The notes under the pieces were generated by a model. The model had not been told where the DNA came from. It made no database searches and worked only from the letters and a program-made list of their open reading frames with translations. A stretch of DNA of 44,289 nt. It comes from Bacillota bacterium. GTDB taxonomy: Bacteria; Bacillota; Clostridia; Lachnospirales; Lachnospiraceae. Location of the stretch: contig JAMPHT010000025.1 in NCBI GenBank assembly GCA_023663285.1, positions 1 to 44,289 of the forward strand. The letters are read 5' to 3'. A program made the position numbers and the translations under genes. This document shows, one piece after another, positions 14,628-19,860 of the stretch (position 1 is its first letter; the number at the start of each line of letters is the position of its first letter).

Positions 14628-14819
14628 CTATATTTCTTCGATGGCCTTCATCAGCTCGTCGATGTCAATGCCGTGTACCATGGCCGCTTCCTCCAAAGAT
14701 TCCCCCTGTGCGGAGGGGCATCCCAGGCAATGCATACCCGCCTCCATCAGCACCGGCGCCACATCCGGATTGGTATGCAGGATCTCTCCGATGGTCATCT
14801 CCTTCGTAACTCCGCTCAT
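14628..14819 (-). CDS. DUF1858 domain small protein
   Basis: 63 residues, one DUF1858 domain: [30 protein letters not shown] and a C-terminal helix (named here as [14 protein letters not shown] then MHCLGCPSA). The HCxGCP motif with two cysteines is typical of this family, which also occurs fused to ScdA/RIC iron-sulfur repair or hybrid-cluster proteins. The likely role is metal or redox related, but unproven. It is divergent from the PFL operon with a shared 254-base control region. GGAGAG ribosome site. Confidence 0.85.
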
Positions 14820-14961: not shown

Positions 14962-14999
14962 GGCGCGTAAGTGTACTTCAAAAAGTACACTCACACGCC
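14962..14999. promoter_or_regulatory. inverted repeat abutting the pfl -35 box
   Basis: Left arm 14962-14978 and right arm 14983-14999 pair at 15 of 17 positions around the loop CAAA, with a perfect core AGTGTACTT/AAGTACACT. It ends one base before the -35 hexamer. Both flanking genes point away, so it is unlikely to be a terminator; a regulator site is the better reading. Confidence 0.55.
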
Positions 15000-15028
15000 T
15001 TGACTGTTCACGTTGTTTTTCATATAAT
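15000..15028 (+). promoter_or_regulatory. pfl operon promoter
   Basis: TTGACT (15000-15005), a 17-base spacer, consensus TATAAT (15023-15028). A strong sigma-A type promoter about 45 bases ahead of pflB. Confidence 0.8.
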
Positions 15029-15073: not shown

Positions 15074-17113
15074 ATGAAACCAATTGAAACAGATTTCGTG
15101 CGTGGCAAGTGGGACAAGGAAGTCAACGTCCGTGACTTCATCCAGAGGAACTATCATCCCTATGACGGCGATGATTCCTTCCTGGCAGGTCCCACACAGA
15201 ACACCAAGGACCTGTGGGCAATGGTGCTTGACCTGCAGAAGCAGGAGAGAGAGGCAGGCGGCGTCCTGGATATGGACACCAAGGTCGTTTCCACCATCAC
15301 TTCCCATGGCCCCGGCTATCTGGACAAGAGCAAGGAGACCATCGTAGGCTTCCAGACCGACAAGCCTTTCAAGAGGTCCCTGCAGCCTTACGGCGGTATC
15401 CGTATGGCAGAGAAAGCCTGCTCCGACAACGGCTATGAGGTCGATCCTGAGATCTCCGAGTTTTTCTCCACTCACAGAAAGACTCATAACGCAGGCTGCT
15501 TCGACGCCTACAATCAGGAAATGAGAGCCTGCCGTTCCTCCCATATCATCACCGGCCTTCCTGATGCTTACGGCCGCGGCCGTATCATCGGCGATTACAG
15601 ACGTGTTGCTCTGTACGGCATCGACAGACTGATCGAGGACAAGCAGGAGCAGAAGGATTCCACCGGCCGCGTTATGACCGATGACGTTATCCGCCTTCGC
15701 GAGGAGATCTCCGAGCAGATGGTTGCCCTGAAGATGATGAAGGAAATGGCTGCTTCCTACGGTTGCGATATCTCCAATCCCGCAACCAATGTAAAGGAAG
15801 CTATCCAGGCCGTATACTTCGGCTATCTGTGTGCTGTTAAGGAGCAGAACGGCGCCGCTATGTCCCTTGGACGTACCTCCACCTTCCTTGACATCTACGC
15901 AGAGAGAGACTTAAAGAACGGCACCTTTACCGAGGAGCAGATTCAGGAGTTCATCGATCACTTTATCATGAAGCTGCGCTGCATCAAGTTTGCGCGTACT
16001 CCTGAGTACAACCAGATCTTTGCAGGCGATCCCGTGTGGGTCACCGAGTCCCTGGCAGGCGTAGGCGTTGACGGACGCCACATGGTCACCAAGATGAGCT
16101 TCCGCTATCTGCAGACCCTGTACAACCTGGGCGCTTCACCTGAGCCCAACCTGACTGTACTCTGGTCCACCAGACTTCCCGAAGGCTTCAAGAGGTTCTG
16201 CGCTAAGACCTCCATTGAGACCTCTTCCATCCAGTATGAGAACGACGATCTGATGAGGGCGACCCACGGCGACGACTATGGTATCGCTTGCTGTGTATCC
16301 TCCATGGTCATCGGTAAGGAGATGCAGTTCTTCGGCGCTCGTGCAAACGTTGCAAAATGTCTGCTGTACGCTTTGAACGGCGGCGTGGACGAAGTTACCA
16401 AGAAGCAGGTAGGTCCCAAGTATCGTCCTGTTGAAGGCGACGTTCTGGATTATGACGATGTTGTCAGCAAGTTCGTAGACATGATGGAGTGGCAGGCGGA
16501 CGTTTATGTAAACACCCTGAACATTATCCATTATATGCATGACAAGTACTGCTATGAGAGAGCAGAAATGGCTCTGCATGACAGGGATGTGAAGAGATAC
16601 TTCGCTACCGGCGTTGCAGGTCTGTCCATCGTGGCTGACTCCCTCTCCGCTATCAAGTATGCAAAGGTTGAGGTCATCCGTGACGAGGACGGCATCATCG
16701 TTGACTTTAAGACCACCGGTGATTTCCCCAAGTACGGCAATGATGACGACCGTGTAGACGAGATCGCACAGTGGCTTGTTCACACCTTCATGACTGCTGT
16801 CAGAAGGCATCATACCTACAGGAACGGTATCCCCACTACTTCCATCCTGACCATTACCTCCAACGTTACCTATGGTAAGGCTACCGGTAATACTCCCGAT
16901 GGACGTAGAAAGGGACAGCCTTTCGCTCCCGGCGCTAACCCCATGCACGGACGCGATACCCACGGTGCGGTGGCGTCTCTGTCCTCCGTTTCCAAGCTTC
17001 CTTTCAGGGATGCACAGGATGGTATCTCCAATACCTTCACCATCATCCCCGGAGCTCTGGGCAAGGAAGATCAGGTGTTTGCCGGTGACATCGAATTAGA
17101 CTTGAACAAGTAA
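15074..17113 (+). CDS. pflB: pyruvate formate-lyase core lacking the glycyl radical domain
   Basis: 679 residues behind AGGAGG, against about 740-760 in ordinary PFL. The 10-stranded barrel core is complete: the Cys-Cys active pair is Cys406-Cys407 in [10 protein letters not shown]. The late segment [20 protein letters not shown], shown in parts as TITSNV and TGNTPDGRR, and GANPMHGRD are intact. The protein stops after [13 protein letters not shown] plus a short tail (IELDLNK), just where a normal PFL runs into its radical domain. The missing domain, with RVSGYA, is encoded separately at 17523-17765. The enzyme converts pyruvate and CoA to acetyl-CoA and formate. Activity must depend on docking of the separate domain (inference). 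Confidence 0.93.
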
Positions 17114-17182
17114 GTAACTCGGTCACGATGTCACCGTGTGATAATCGAGTTAGACTTGAACAAGTAAGATTTAAACAAGTAA
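17083..17182 (+). repeat. duplicated pflB tail and inverted repeats after the stop codon
   Basis: The last 25 bases around the pflB stop (17090-17114) recur at 17144-17168 with one mismatch, 54 bases apart and therefore in frame. A third partial copy ends in TAA at 17180-17182. An 11-base perfect inverted repeat (CGGTGACATCG at 17083-17093, complement at 17126-17136) spans the stop codon. TAACTCG (17115-17121) can instead pair with CGAGTTA (17146-17152), and the two pairings exclude each other. Confidence 0.8.
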
Positions 17183-17200
17183 TATAGAGAAGGAGACGCC

Positions 17201-17404
17201 ATGGACGACAAGAAAATGATCGACGACCTGATCAGTATGCTGGATTCCGGCATGACAGAAGGCGTGGGACACATCAATGTGGATTACGATGAAGAGGAAC
17301 AGCAGTCAAAGAATGTTCAGACAATGGGCTGTACGGACTGCTCCAGGACGCCGTTGGCCTGCAGTGTGCCTACCCTTGAGCAGGGATTGGACGATTACCA
17401 CTGA
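17201..17404 (+). CDS. small three-cysteine protein resembling the start of a glycyl radical domain
   Basis: 67 residues behind AGAAGGAG, in the middle of the pfl operon. Residues 7-28 align without gaps to residues 8-29 of the separate radical domain (D, L, L, D, T, G, H, N and V shared; 9 of 22 identical, most of the others similar). The GLY-loop half (RVSGYA) is absent. It is replaced by an acidic linker (DEEEQQ) and a tail GCTDCSRTPLACSVP with Cys44, Cys47 and Cys54. I know no named family. It may occupy the radical-domain groove of PflB, sense redox state or bind metal; all of these are inference. Confidence 0.8.
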   Translation: MDDKKMIDDLISMLDSGMTEGVGHINVDYDEEEQQSKNVQTMGCTDCSRTPLACSVPTLEQGLDDYH

Positions 17405-17425
17405 TCTTCCCATGGGCATCACTTT

Positions 17426-17457
17426 CCCGCTGCCGGAGGCAAAAATGCGACGGCGGG
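17426..17457 (+). other. hairpin between the small Cys gene and the radical-domain gene
   Basis: CCCGCTGCCG (17426-17435) pairs with CGACGGCGGG (17448-17457) with one mismatch and one wobble. There is no T-run, so it is more likely an RNA-stability or processing element than a terminator. Confidence 0.4.
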
Positions 17458-17522
17458 CAACAGCAATTTACGGGGAGGCGGTCCTGCCGCTTCCCTGCAC
17501 AAAATAGAAGGAGGAACTCATT

Positions 17523-17765
17523 ATGGCAACAAGTGCAGCACAGGTTGATAACCTTGTAAATTTATTGGATGGCTATGCTACCAAGGGCGGCCATCACCTG
17601 AACGTCAACGTTCTGAACAGAGACACTCTGCTGGACGCTCAGAAGCATCCTGAGAACTATCCTCAGCTGACCATCCGTGTATCCGGATATGCAGTCAACT
17701 TCATCAAGCTGACTCCCGAACAGCAGGCTGATGTTATTTCCCGTACTTTCCATGAGGCGATCTGA
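17523..17765 (+). CDS. grcA: separate glycyl radical domain of pyruvate formate-lyase (GrcA-like)
   Basis: 80 residues behind AGAAGGAGG. Residues 8-80 correspond to the C-terminal domain of [23 protein letters not shown] (8-27), the radical loop RVSGYAVNF with radical-bearing Gly55, and the end [13 protein letters not shown]. Known for the family: PFL activase abstracts a hydrogen from this glycine, and in E. coli a similar spare domain (YfiD/GrcA) rescues oxygen-cleaved PFL. Here the partner PflB has no domain of its own, so this protein should be the enzyme's permanent second subunit. A terminator-like hairpin follows. Confidence 0.93.
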
Positions 17766-17781
17766 GATAACCGCCGATTCC

Positions 17782-17813
17782 ATCCCCCGCTTTACCGGCG
17801 GGGGATTGTTTTT
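17782..17813 (+). terminator. intrinsic terminator/attenuator before pflA
   Basis: Stem ATCCCCCGC (17782-17790) / GCGGGGGAT (17798-17806) followed by TGTTTTT. It lies inside the operon, 21 bases before the pflA start, so it probably lets only part of transcription reach the activase. Confidence 0.8.
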
Positions 17814-17833: not shown

Positions 17834-18598
17834 ATGCAAGGCAGAATTCACTCTTTGGAAAGCTTCGGAACGGTAGACGGTCCCGGCACACGCTTTGTAG
17901 TCTTTGTGCAGGGCTGCCCTATGCGGTGCGCCTACTGTCACAACCCCGACACCTGGGACATGAACGACGGCACCCTCATGGAGCCGTCCTACATCATCGA
18001 GCAGTATGAAAGAAACAGCGCCTTTTACGCCAACGGCGGCGGCATTACGGTCACCGGAGGCGAGCCGCTGATGCAGATAGATTTTCTGATAGATCTGTTT
18101 ACCCTGGCAAAGGAACGGGGTATCCACACCTGTATCGATTCCTCCGGCATCGCTTTCAACCCTGAAAACGCTGACCAGCGGGAAAAGCTTGACAGGCTCA
18201 TGAGCCTGACCGACCTTGTAATGCTGGACATCAAGCATATCGATCCGGAGAAGCACAGGGATCTGACCAGGCAGCCCAACGCCAATATCCTGAAATTTGC
18301 AGAATATCTGAATGAAAAGCATATTGATATGTGGATACGTCATGTGGTAGTGCCCGGCATTACAGACGATGATAAATATCTTTATGACCTGGGATATTTT
18401 ATCGGTCAGTTCGAGAACCTCCGCGCGCTGGATGTACTGCCCTACCACACCATGGGAGAAAAAAAGTACGAAAGCCTGGGGATGGAGTACAGGCTGAAGG
18501 GCGTCCCTGCCATGGATAAGACAAAGCTGCTGGAAAAAAAGAAAGTGATCCTGGACGGCATCCGGAAGCGCAGGGAAGAAACAGCTAACAAGAATTAG
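17834..18598 (+). CDS. pflA: pyruvate formate-lyase activating enzyme
   Basis: 254 residues behind AGGAGG. Radical-SAM cluster motif CX3CX2C at Cys28, Cys32 and Cys35 (GCPMRCAYCHNP), SAM-binding GGxP-type segment ITVTGGEPL, and the usual opening with SFGTVDGPGTRF. It uses a [4Fe-4S] cluster and SAM to create the glycyl radical, here on the separate domain protein at 17523-17765. An electron donor is needed, and a ferredoxin gene follows 112 bases downstream. Confidence 0.96.
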   Translation: MQGRIHSLESFGTVDGPGTRFVVFVQGCPMRCAYCHNPDTWDMNDGTLMEPSYIIEQYERNSAFYANGGGITVTGGEPLMQIDFLIDLFTLAKERGIHTCIDSSGIAFNPENADQREKLDRLMSLTDLVMLDIKHIDPEKHRDLTRQPNANILKFAEYLNEKHIDMWIRHVVVPGITDDDKYLYDLGYFIGQFENLRALDVLPYHTMGEKKYESLGMEYRLKGVPAMDKTKLLEKKKVILDGIRKRREETANKN

Positions 18599-18893: not shown

Positions 18894-18932
18894 AAAGAAA
18901 GGCATCCTCTATGAGCTGCCTTTCTTTTTTTT
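18894..18932. terminator. bidirectional terminator, ferredoxin and merR
   Basis: Perfect 11-base stem AAAGAAAGGCA (18894-18904) / TGCCTTTCTTT (18917-18927) with a T-run on the plus strand. The last codons and stop of the minus-strand merR gene lie inside it; the complement of the T-run encodes the lysines of its KKKKGSS end. Confidence 0.88.
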
Positions 18933-19706
18933 GCCCAGGCCAAACCCCTTTTTAGCCTTTTTTCGTAAGAGCTCGTCCATCCTTTTATAGTATTCCTCAT
19001 CCCGCTCCTGCATCCTCTTATCCCTGAGTTCTTCTCTTTCCTCCTGCATCCTGAACTGATAATCCAGCTCCTTTACCACGTTTTCCCGGATTTCCCGGCA
19101 AAGCTCCTCGTTATTTTCCTGCAGTGTCTCGCGGATCAGCTGCTGCAGCAGCCACTGCAGCCTTTTTGATTTCTCTTCCTTTGACTCGGCTGCCAGCATA
19201 CCGTCGCCGGAGTGTACAATGTCCGCTGGCGCGGACATCGTCGCTGGCGCGGACATCGTCGCTGGCGCGGACATCGTCGCTGACGCGGACATAGCCGTTT
19301 GCGCAGACATAGCCGTTTGCGCAGACATAGCCGTTTGCGCAGACATAGCCGCTGATGCGGGCGCCGTCAGCGCTTCCATGTCAGGTATATCCCCGGCAGA
19401 TCCATCCGGCTCCCCTGTCATCTGCTCCGACCGCCTTTCCCCGTCCTTCTCCAGGCTCTCCGGCTGACCGGACAGCAAATCCAGCTTTCCGTCTTTCAGA
19501 ATCATCTTTATGGCTTTCAACTGCAATCCCCTCTCTTTCATTCCCTTGATCGTTTTAAAGCGCTCCACGTCCTCCTTTGTATAATACCGGTGCCCCAGCT
19601 CGTTTCGCTTGATCGGAAGATGCAGTTCCTCCTCCCAATAACGCAGTACGTGGCTTTCCACCTTCACCTCTTTTGCAGCATCCGAAATCAATAAATAGTT
19701 TCCCAT
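18909..19706 (-). CDS. MerR family regulator with tandem-repeat linker
   Basis: 265 residues from the ATG at 19706 (MGNYLLISDAAKEVKVESHV) behind AAAGGAGA; the frame extends to 19853 without support. The N-terminal winged helix-turn-helix (~1-75) contains VLRYWEEELHLPIKRNELGHRYY, seen here as VLRYWEEEL and GHRYYTKED, typical of MerR. A low-complexity linker (~115-165) repeats MSAQTA/MSAPAT. A charged coiled coil (~185-250) and a lysine tail follow. It lacks an obvious ligand domain. Target genes are unknown. Confidence 0.85.
   Translation of the reverse strand: MGNYLLISDAAKEVKVESHVLRYWEEELHLPIKRNELGHRYYTKEDVERFKTIKGMKERGLQLKAIKMILKDGKLDLLSGQPESLEKDGERRSEQMTGEPDGSAGDIPDMEALTAPASAAMSAQTAMSAQTAMSAQTAMSASATMSAPATMSAPATMSAPADIVHSGDGMLAAESKEEKSKRLQWLLQQLIRETLQENNEELCREIRENVVKELDYQFRMQEEREELRDKRMQERDEEYYKRMDELLRKKAKKGFGLGKKKKGSS
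19218..19359. repeat. 18-base tandem repeat inside merR
   Basis: Seven full 18-base units (19234-19359), each beginning GACAT on the plus strand, plus one partial unit from 19218. Two unit types occur in blocks: three GACATCGTCGCTGGCGCG-like copies and three GACATAGCCGTTTGCGCA copies, then a hybrid. Each unit encodes six residues, so copy-number changes keep the frame. Confidence 0.92.
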
Positions 19707-19744
19707 AGTGTCTCCTTTCTCCAAAAGCACTTCTGCAGCATAAT

Positions 19745-19772
19745 CGAGTAGGGAATACTTTCTCCCTACTCG
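19745..19772. repeat. inverted repeat upstream of merR
   Basis: CGAGTAGGGA (19745-19754) and its perfect complement (19763-19772) around an eight-base loop, about 40 bases upstream of the merR start. It may be an operator or a leader hairpin; there is no T-run. Confidence 0.5.
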
Positions 19773-19827
19773 TGCGCGGCCCGTGCGCCGCGTCAGCGGC
19801 AAAATACATCTGCACGGGTCTGCGCAT

Positions 19828-19860
19828 AAAAAGAGAACAAGCCCTTCGCTCATTCTCTTT
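19828..19860 (-). terminator. terminator of the gdpP-rplI-dnaB run
   Basis: On the minus strand AAAGAGAA (19853-19860) pairs with TTCTCTTT (19830-19837), followed by more T. It lies 15 bases after the dnaB stop. Confidence 0.7.

Follow-up and report, generated by a model that had tools for sequence, protein, structure and literature searches.

Pyruvate formate-lyase (PFL) supplies acetyl-CoA and formate in fermentation, and its radical is destroyed by oxygen. In an Acetatifactor-like Lachnospiraceae genome (3.07 Mb, 86% complete) the core of a PFL and its glycyl radical domain are encoded by separate genes with a further gene between them. This raises the question whether the two pieces form a working enzyme, and what the gene in between contributes. 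The locus lies on contig C17 in a stretch of 44,289 nucleotides, which was analyzed as a whole and is called the window below.

Organization of the Locus

The features of the locus are as follows:

15000..15028, + strand: candidate sigma-70-like promoter, TTGACT-17-TATAAT, 11/12 matches in a consensus scan (weak evidence)
15074..17113, + strand: pflB core of 679 aa without radical domain, C-terminal GDIELDLNK (ORF, Pfam, TIGR01255, 1h16 alignment)
17083..17168, + strand: duplication of the 3′-end of the core gene, direct copies at 17090-17114 and 17144-17168, inverted arms at 17083-17093 and 17126-17136
17201..17404, + strand: middle protein of 67 aa, N-terminal part sharing homology with the first part of the radical domain, C-terminus CTDCSRTPLACSVPTLEQGLDD (ORF, profile searches, hhalign)
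17523..17765, + strand: stand-alone glycyl radical domain of 80 aa with RVSGYAV, NCBIfam GrcA3 (ORF, Pfam, NF038360, PDB sequence alignment)
17782..17806, + strand: terminator-like hairpin between the radical-domain gene and pflA (consensus scan; weak evidence)
17834..18598, + strand: pflA, PFL-activating radical SAM enzyme of 254 aa (TIGR02493, 296.4 bits, cut-off 231.75)

The core scored 1085.6 bits against TIGR01255 (cut-off 994.2) and matched positions 5-665 of 744. The match stops at 665 and the radical domain is another gene, so the domain is not part of the core chain. Both the sequence and the alignment with the E. coli PFL (1h16) revealed the catalytic cysteine pair (ACCVS) in the core, and an LGKED motif is present shortly before its C-terminal end. 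The original prediction had described a PFL encoded by two separate genes, with pieces that tile a normal PFL and lie apart with another gene between them, and this was verified: the core corresponds to residues 13-681 of the E. coli PFL and the radical domain to residues 683-758, while the 106 positions of Pfam Gly_radical are shared out between the core (1-51) and the stand-alone domain (50-106). The gap of 409 bases contains the 67-aa ORF, and the gene order is core, middle gene, radical domain, and then pflA. The predicted ribosome-binding site of the radical-domain gene was also found, with GAAGGAGGAACTCATT preceding the ATG start codon. The domain scored 161.3 bits against NCBIfam NF038360 “GrcA3” (cut-off 158).

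The sigma-70-like and terminator-like sites, of which the region contains seven (4.3 expected) and five (3.2 expected), respectively, are not clearly more common than in shuffled sequence and are weak evidence. A core-middle-domain transcript is putative. Upstream, a divergent gene for a DUF1858/hybrid-cluster-protein-associated redox disulfide protein (14628-14819, − strand) adjoins the PFL genes, and a hairpin with 17-nt arms (14962-14999) is located between them. The ORF at 18909-19853 (− strand) contains a tandem low-complexity stretch with AMSAQT/ATMSAP repeats; presumably it encodes a MerR-like regulator.

A copy of the last approximately 25 nt of the core gene lies downstream of it, and an inverted copy separates the two. 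A dispersed repeat between the core and the middle gene was considered and rejected, the pattern occurring once in the genome. Among 82 loci with spacers of at least 30 nt, each compared with its own core, an inverted copy of at least 9 nt was present in 18 and a direct copy of at least 12 nt in 14. The duplication, which most loci lack, may result from a replication accident that recurs, or it may act as an mRNA switch.

Distribution of the Split PFL

In the genus, TIGR01255 matched in 134 of 138 genomes and scored above the cut-off in 90. The original prediction had suggested a genome search for short PflB proteins devoid of the radical domain, and such proteins were found in 88 of these 90 genomes, in which the match stops before the radical domain (four of the 88 seemingly stop at a contig edge and two run on through stop codons). 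Only G001 and G088 have a full-length match. Their PFLs group with ordinary full-length PFLs of Lachnospiraceae (L006, L007). In the two genus members represented by L006 and L007, the PFL is an ordinary full-length enzyme that belongs to a different clade, and no stand-alone radical domain was found in them; apparently, the split enzyme was replaced by a full-length PFL.

Among the matches listed for genus genomes with a split core there was no full-length PFL, although such a hit would rank well above the lowest score listed; partial matches truncated by a contig end, e.g., a second one in G068, could be of either kind. For the window's own genome, the search with TIGR01255 yielded a single PFL-like match, the core itself; the absence of a full-length PFL was a check that the original prediction had asked for. 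As this assembly is 86% complete, the absence rests on the genus-wide data.

The family was sampled with 200 Lachnospiraceae genomes from 199 genera. The cut-off was exceeded in 146, of which 140 were among the matches listed: 68 have a split PFL (window included), 76 a full-length PFL, and four both, whereby the matches listed reach down to about 1081 bits and weaker full-length copies could be hidden. A PFL was called split according to where the profile match ends; 38 of the 68 loci were fetched, and all 38 were confirmed. In a phylum sample of 398 genomes 123 scored above the cut-off and four of these PFLs were split: those of the window, of one member of the family, and of two genomes from a different class. 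The split PFL is thus rare outside Lachnospiraceae (4/123, window included). The same split is kept across genus and family genomes, which rules out a sequencing artefact; the original prediction had argued against a sequencing frameshift from the distance between the two genes. An assembly error was likewise rejected, the split being conserved in the genus genomes, the family sample, and the loci found with the middle gene (see below).

A second stand-alone radical domain of 80 aa is present in the window's genome on contig C12 (locus L002, 1441-1683, − strand), with 76 of 80 residues identical to the first; no PFL core was found among the ORFs of this 3.2-kb locus. The original prediction had taken the domain next to the core to be the only source of the radical, which did not hold. 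A second stand-alone copy was found in 15 of 50 genus genomes searched, including that of the window, which fits an exchange or a dosage effect of the subunit.

Selection and Alternatives to a Two-Gene Enzyme

The ratios of the median dN and dS values, determined for 45 loci against the window, were 0.056 for the core, 0.041 for the radical domain, and 0.059 for the middle gene, the last with 33 of 45 finite values and dS near saturation. A genuine two-gene PFL is well supported by its conservation in genus and family, the low dN/dS, and the lack of a full-length PFL among the matches listed for genus members with a split core. Judged from the sequences, the split PFL would be a working enzyme of two obligatory polypeptides that act together, and a probability of about 0.82 is assigned to this reading.

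It is improbable that the core is instead a decaying PFL, and the radical domain an ordinary GrcA spare part for a full-length PFL that was lost or not sequenced. Spare parts of the GrcA type are known, the window's assembly is incomplete, some genus genomes have more partial PFL matches at contig ends (e.g., G068), and in the four family genomes mentioned split and full-length PFLs occur together. However, a core dN/dS of about 0.06, the 68 split genomes among the 140 listed for the family, and the missing full-length PFL in the listed matches of genus members with a split core speak against decay. Hardly credible is a joining of core and domain in translation by stop-codon read-through or frameshifting: the window's middle gene shares the reading frame of the core (709 codons), and in a few cases the profile match continues past the stop into the middle gene, but this gene is in frame at 35 of 105 loci, which is the chance level, the radical domain occurs in all three frames (33, 37, and 53 of 123), and it has its own ribosome-binding site and ATG.

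A Single Lineage of Split Cores

In a tree computed from 86 cores, with full-length PFLs as outgroups, one change sets apart the 47 split cores together with L162 and L165. This group had a branch support of 97 in an 88-row version of the tree, which included two misread rows (L184 and L192, in wrong reading frames); these were left out of later core trees and tests and kept in the radical-domain tree. L195, a duplicate of L154, was not used. For the split cores alone three changes are needed, and a clade of these was rejected (p-AU 0.0026), while a clade of the split cores and L165 without L162 was rejected more weakly (p 0.028). The split cores therefore form one lineage, with one well supported and one less certain re-fusion.

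The well supported case, L165 (genome G601), is a full-length PFL; where its core meets the radical domain there is a Cys-rich insert, TCGCEEVTC. The best identity of its radical domain is 0.85 to stand-alone domains and 0.72 to full-length PFLs, and it is most simply explained as a natural re-fusion. The radical domain of L162 has a best identity of 0.83 to full-length PFLs and 0.80 to stand-alone domains, and is found on a long branch, on the stand-alone side of a small radical-domain tree. L162 may represent another re-fusion or a surviving PFL that was never split. Taken together, it is simplest to assume that the split arose once, in the ancestor of a mainly Lachnospiraceae PFL lineage, and was stably inherited with rare re-fusion.

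The Middle Gene and Its Cysteine Element

The gene between core and radical domain had been set aside as incidental. This view was not confirmed, because a cysteine element is present there at every split locus examined. The middle gene was found at all 29 split genus loci fetched (the window and 28 from the top of the TIGR01255 score list). A search of genome contigs with a middle-protein profile yielded 433 relatives, of which the best 80 were examined, and all 80 are situated between a split core and a radical domain, in this order, the core being only partial at some loci where the contig ends. These loci include the isolates Acetatifactor muris DSM 23669, Parablautia muri, and P. intestinalis, and the closest named relative by middle gene among the best 80 of 433 is a MAG labelled Acetatifactor muris with 100% identity over 67 aa.

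A wider sample comprised 40 split loci: two belong to another class and 38 to the family, most of the latter with scores at the top of the list. All of them have a radical-domain gene nearby and a Cys element, which forms the tail of the core in 19 cases and a separate middle gene in 21. On the core tree the two forms interchange. The elements contain 1-4 cysteines (the middle protein of the window has three), at least two in 38 of 40 and none lacking Cys, and [AS]CxxP is present in 36 of 40.

Comparison of the middle protein with the radical domain using hhalign resulted in a score of 40.5 (E 9.4e-8), compared to best scores of 21.1 in 200 column shuffles and 18.6 in another 100. In a PFL, a helix precedes the strand that completes the barrel. 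By the above comparison, approximately the first 30 residues of the middle protein share homology with the initial part of the radical domain. In the E. coli PFL, this initial part contains the barrel-completing strand, according to PMC8683613. With a profile of the C-terminal half of the middle protein, 10 of 20 tails scored above every shuffled tail, L131 and L154 exceeded only their own shuffles, and the CACCEP-type tails, L149, L155, and the L165 linker were indistinguishable from shuffles. The shortest tails have the cysteines alone in common with this half, and the Cys element is variable in sequence.

Three readings of the element were considered. Tentatively, as long as no radical subunit is present, it could occupy or guard the core's docking site. 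In a somewhat more doubtful extension, the enzyme would be a three-part system of a core, an exchangeable radical subunit, and a Cys “stand-in” that acts as a redox-controlled gate. The stand-in would copy the docking start of the radical domain, with thiols in place of the radical loop, cap the empty core, and compete with the radical subunit. A strict anaerobe might thus park its PFL safely during exposure to oxygen and reactivate it with a fresh 80-aa part.

Less likely, the middle protein is an accessory subunit that tunes radical transfer, as in benzylsuccinate synthase and 4-hydroxyphenylacetate decarboxylase, perhaps with a metal centre. Here too, a small conserved Cys protein is encoded alongside a glycyl radical enzyme, and BSS-beta was reported to promote thiyl radical formation (PMC12590467). 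However, the elements have only 1-4 cysteines, the middle protein, with its three, yielded no Pfam/NCBIfam or PDB-sequence match to small subunits of the BSS/HPAD type, which are characterized by a HiPIP-like Cys set binding [4Fe-4S], and in 19 of 40 loci the element is a mere core tail. Less likely still, the element is a relic of the original radical domain that serves as linker or in expression only and has no role of its own. The homology to the radical-domain start and the variable motif in some lineages are in line with this, but the dN/dS of the middle gene is as low as that of the core, and a Cys is present in 40 of 40 loci.

Proposed Working of the Split Enzyme

For the two-gene PFL, we infer assembly, activation in trans, catalysis, subunit exchange, and a role of the Cys element as follows. 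The 679-aa core would provide the substrate site and the catalytic cysteine pair. PflA would install the radical on the glycine of the 80-aa subunit, which, by homology to the E. coli PFL and GrcA, would dock on the core, supplying the last barrel strand and the glycine loop, and hand the radical to the core's cysteine. An E. coli PflB G734A variant produced formate with GrcA and none without it, as reported in PMC12338860, indicating that a radical in trans suffices. Compared to oxygen-cleaved PFL, an artificially truncated E. coli PFL (1-695) showed weaker binding of YfiD and a lower activation (PMC8683613), so splitting is not automatically harmless. The natural split is located about a dozen residues earlier than this truncation, and due to this earlier position the natural pair may work. 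It is plausible that the cell discards and replaces oxygen-cut domains, because damaged PFL of E. coli is restored by GrcA in this way. AlphaFold models of core, middle protein, and domain (L044 read-through) and of the window's core and middle protein had mean pLDDT values of 48.1 and 46.1, respectively; both are of low confidence, and no docking claim is based on them.

Should a separable 80-aa radical subunit be used by about half of the Lachnospiraceae genera that were sampled and have a PFL, models of oxygen sensitivity, radical repair, and formate production in the gut need revision. Genome surveys may misread split cores as truncated, and for mechanistic studies and engineering the pair would offer a glycyl radical enzyme that is split by nature.

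Comparison With Known Systems

The E. coli full-length PFL (1h16) is homologous across core and domain and shares the catalytic CC, but it is a single chain and has no Cys element. GrcA/YfiD of E. coli and Y06I of T4 are, like the domain of the window, small free-standing radical domains with RVSGYAV, and residues 20-79 of the window's domain align to residues 67-126 of YfiD (6owr). PflA activates YfiD, which provides PFL with the radical in trans (PMC8683613 and PMC12338860). The window's domain has the free-standing RVSGYA glycine domain and the NF038360 score of a GrcA-type protein. However, a PFL with its own radical domain, for which it could be the spare part, was absent from the matches listed for genus genomes with a split core, the assembly of the window being incomplete. 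While the PFL repaired by GrcA once had a radical domain of its own, a core of the window type never has one. GrcA also has a disordered N-terminus of about 60 residues that matters for binding (PMC8683613), whereas the subunit of the window begins at the equivalent of residue 683 of the E. coli PFL.

NF038360 (autonomous glycyl radical cofactor GrcA3) is an existing name for the domain, and the entry as displayed mentions neither a split PFL nor a cysteine element. In the open-access literature searched, no description of a split PFL was found. The best PDB matches to the core, above the E. coli PFL, are 38la and 38lb (“Formate acetyltransferase”), the sequences of which differ from that of the window; 38lb has a tail with CDMC after LGK. 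A PDB search with the radical domain matched neither a 38la nor a 38lb chain. Both entries were absent from the Foldseek matches listed for a low-confidence model as query, with a library ending on 8 April 2026, and thus they were apparently released later. From their sequences, 38la and 38lb are probably recently released cores of split PFLs, and therefore at least one group probably knows of the arrangement. The least expected part of the system is the conserved Cys element.
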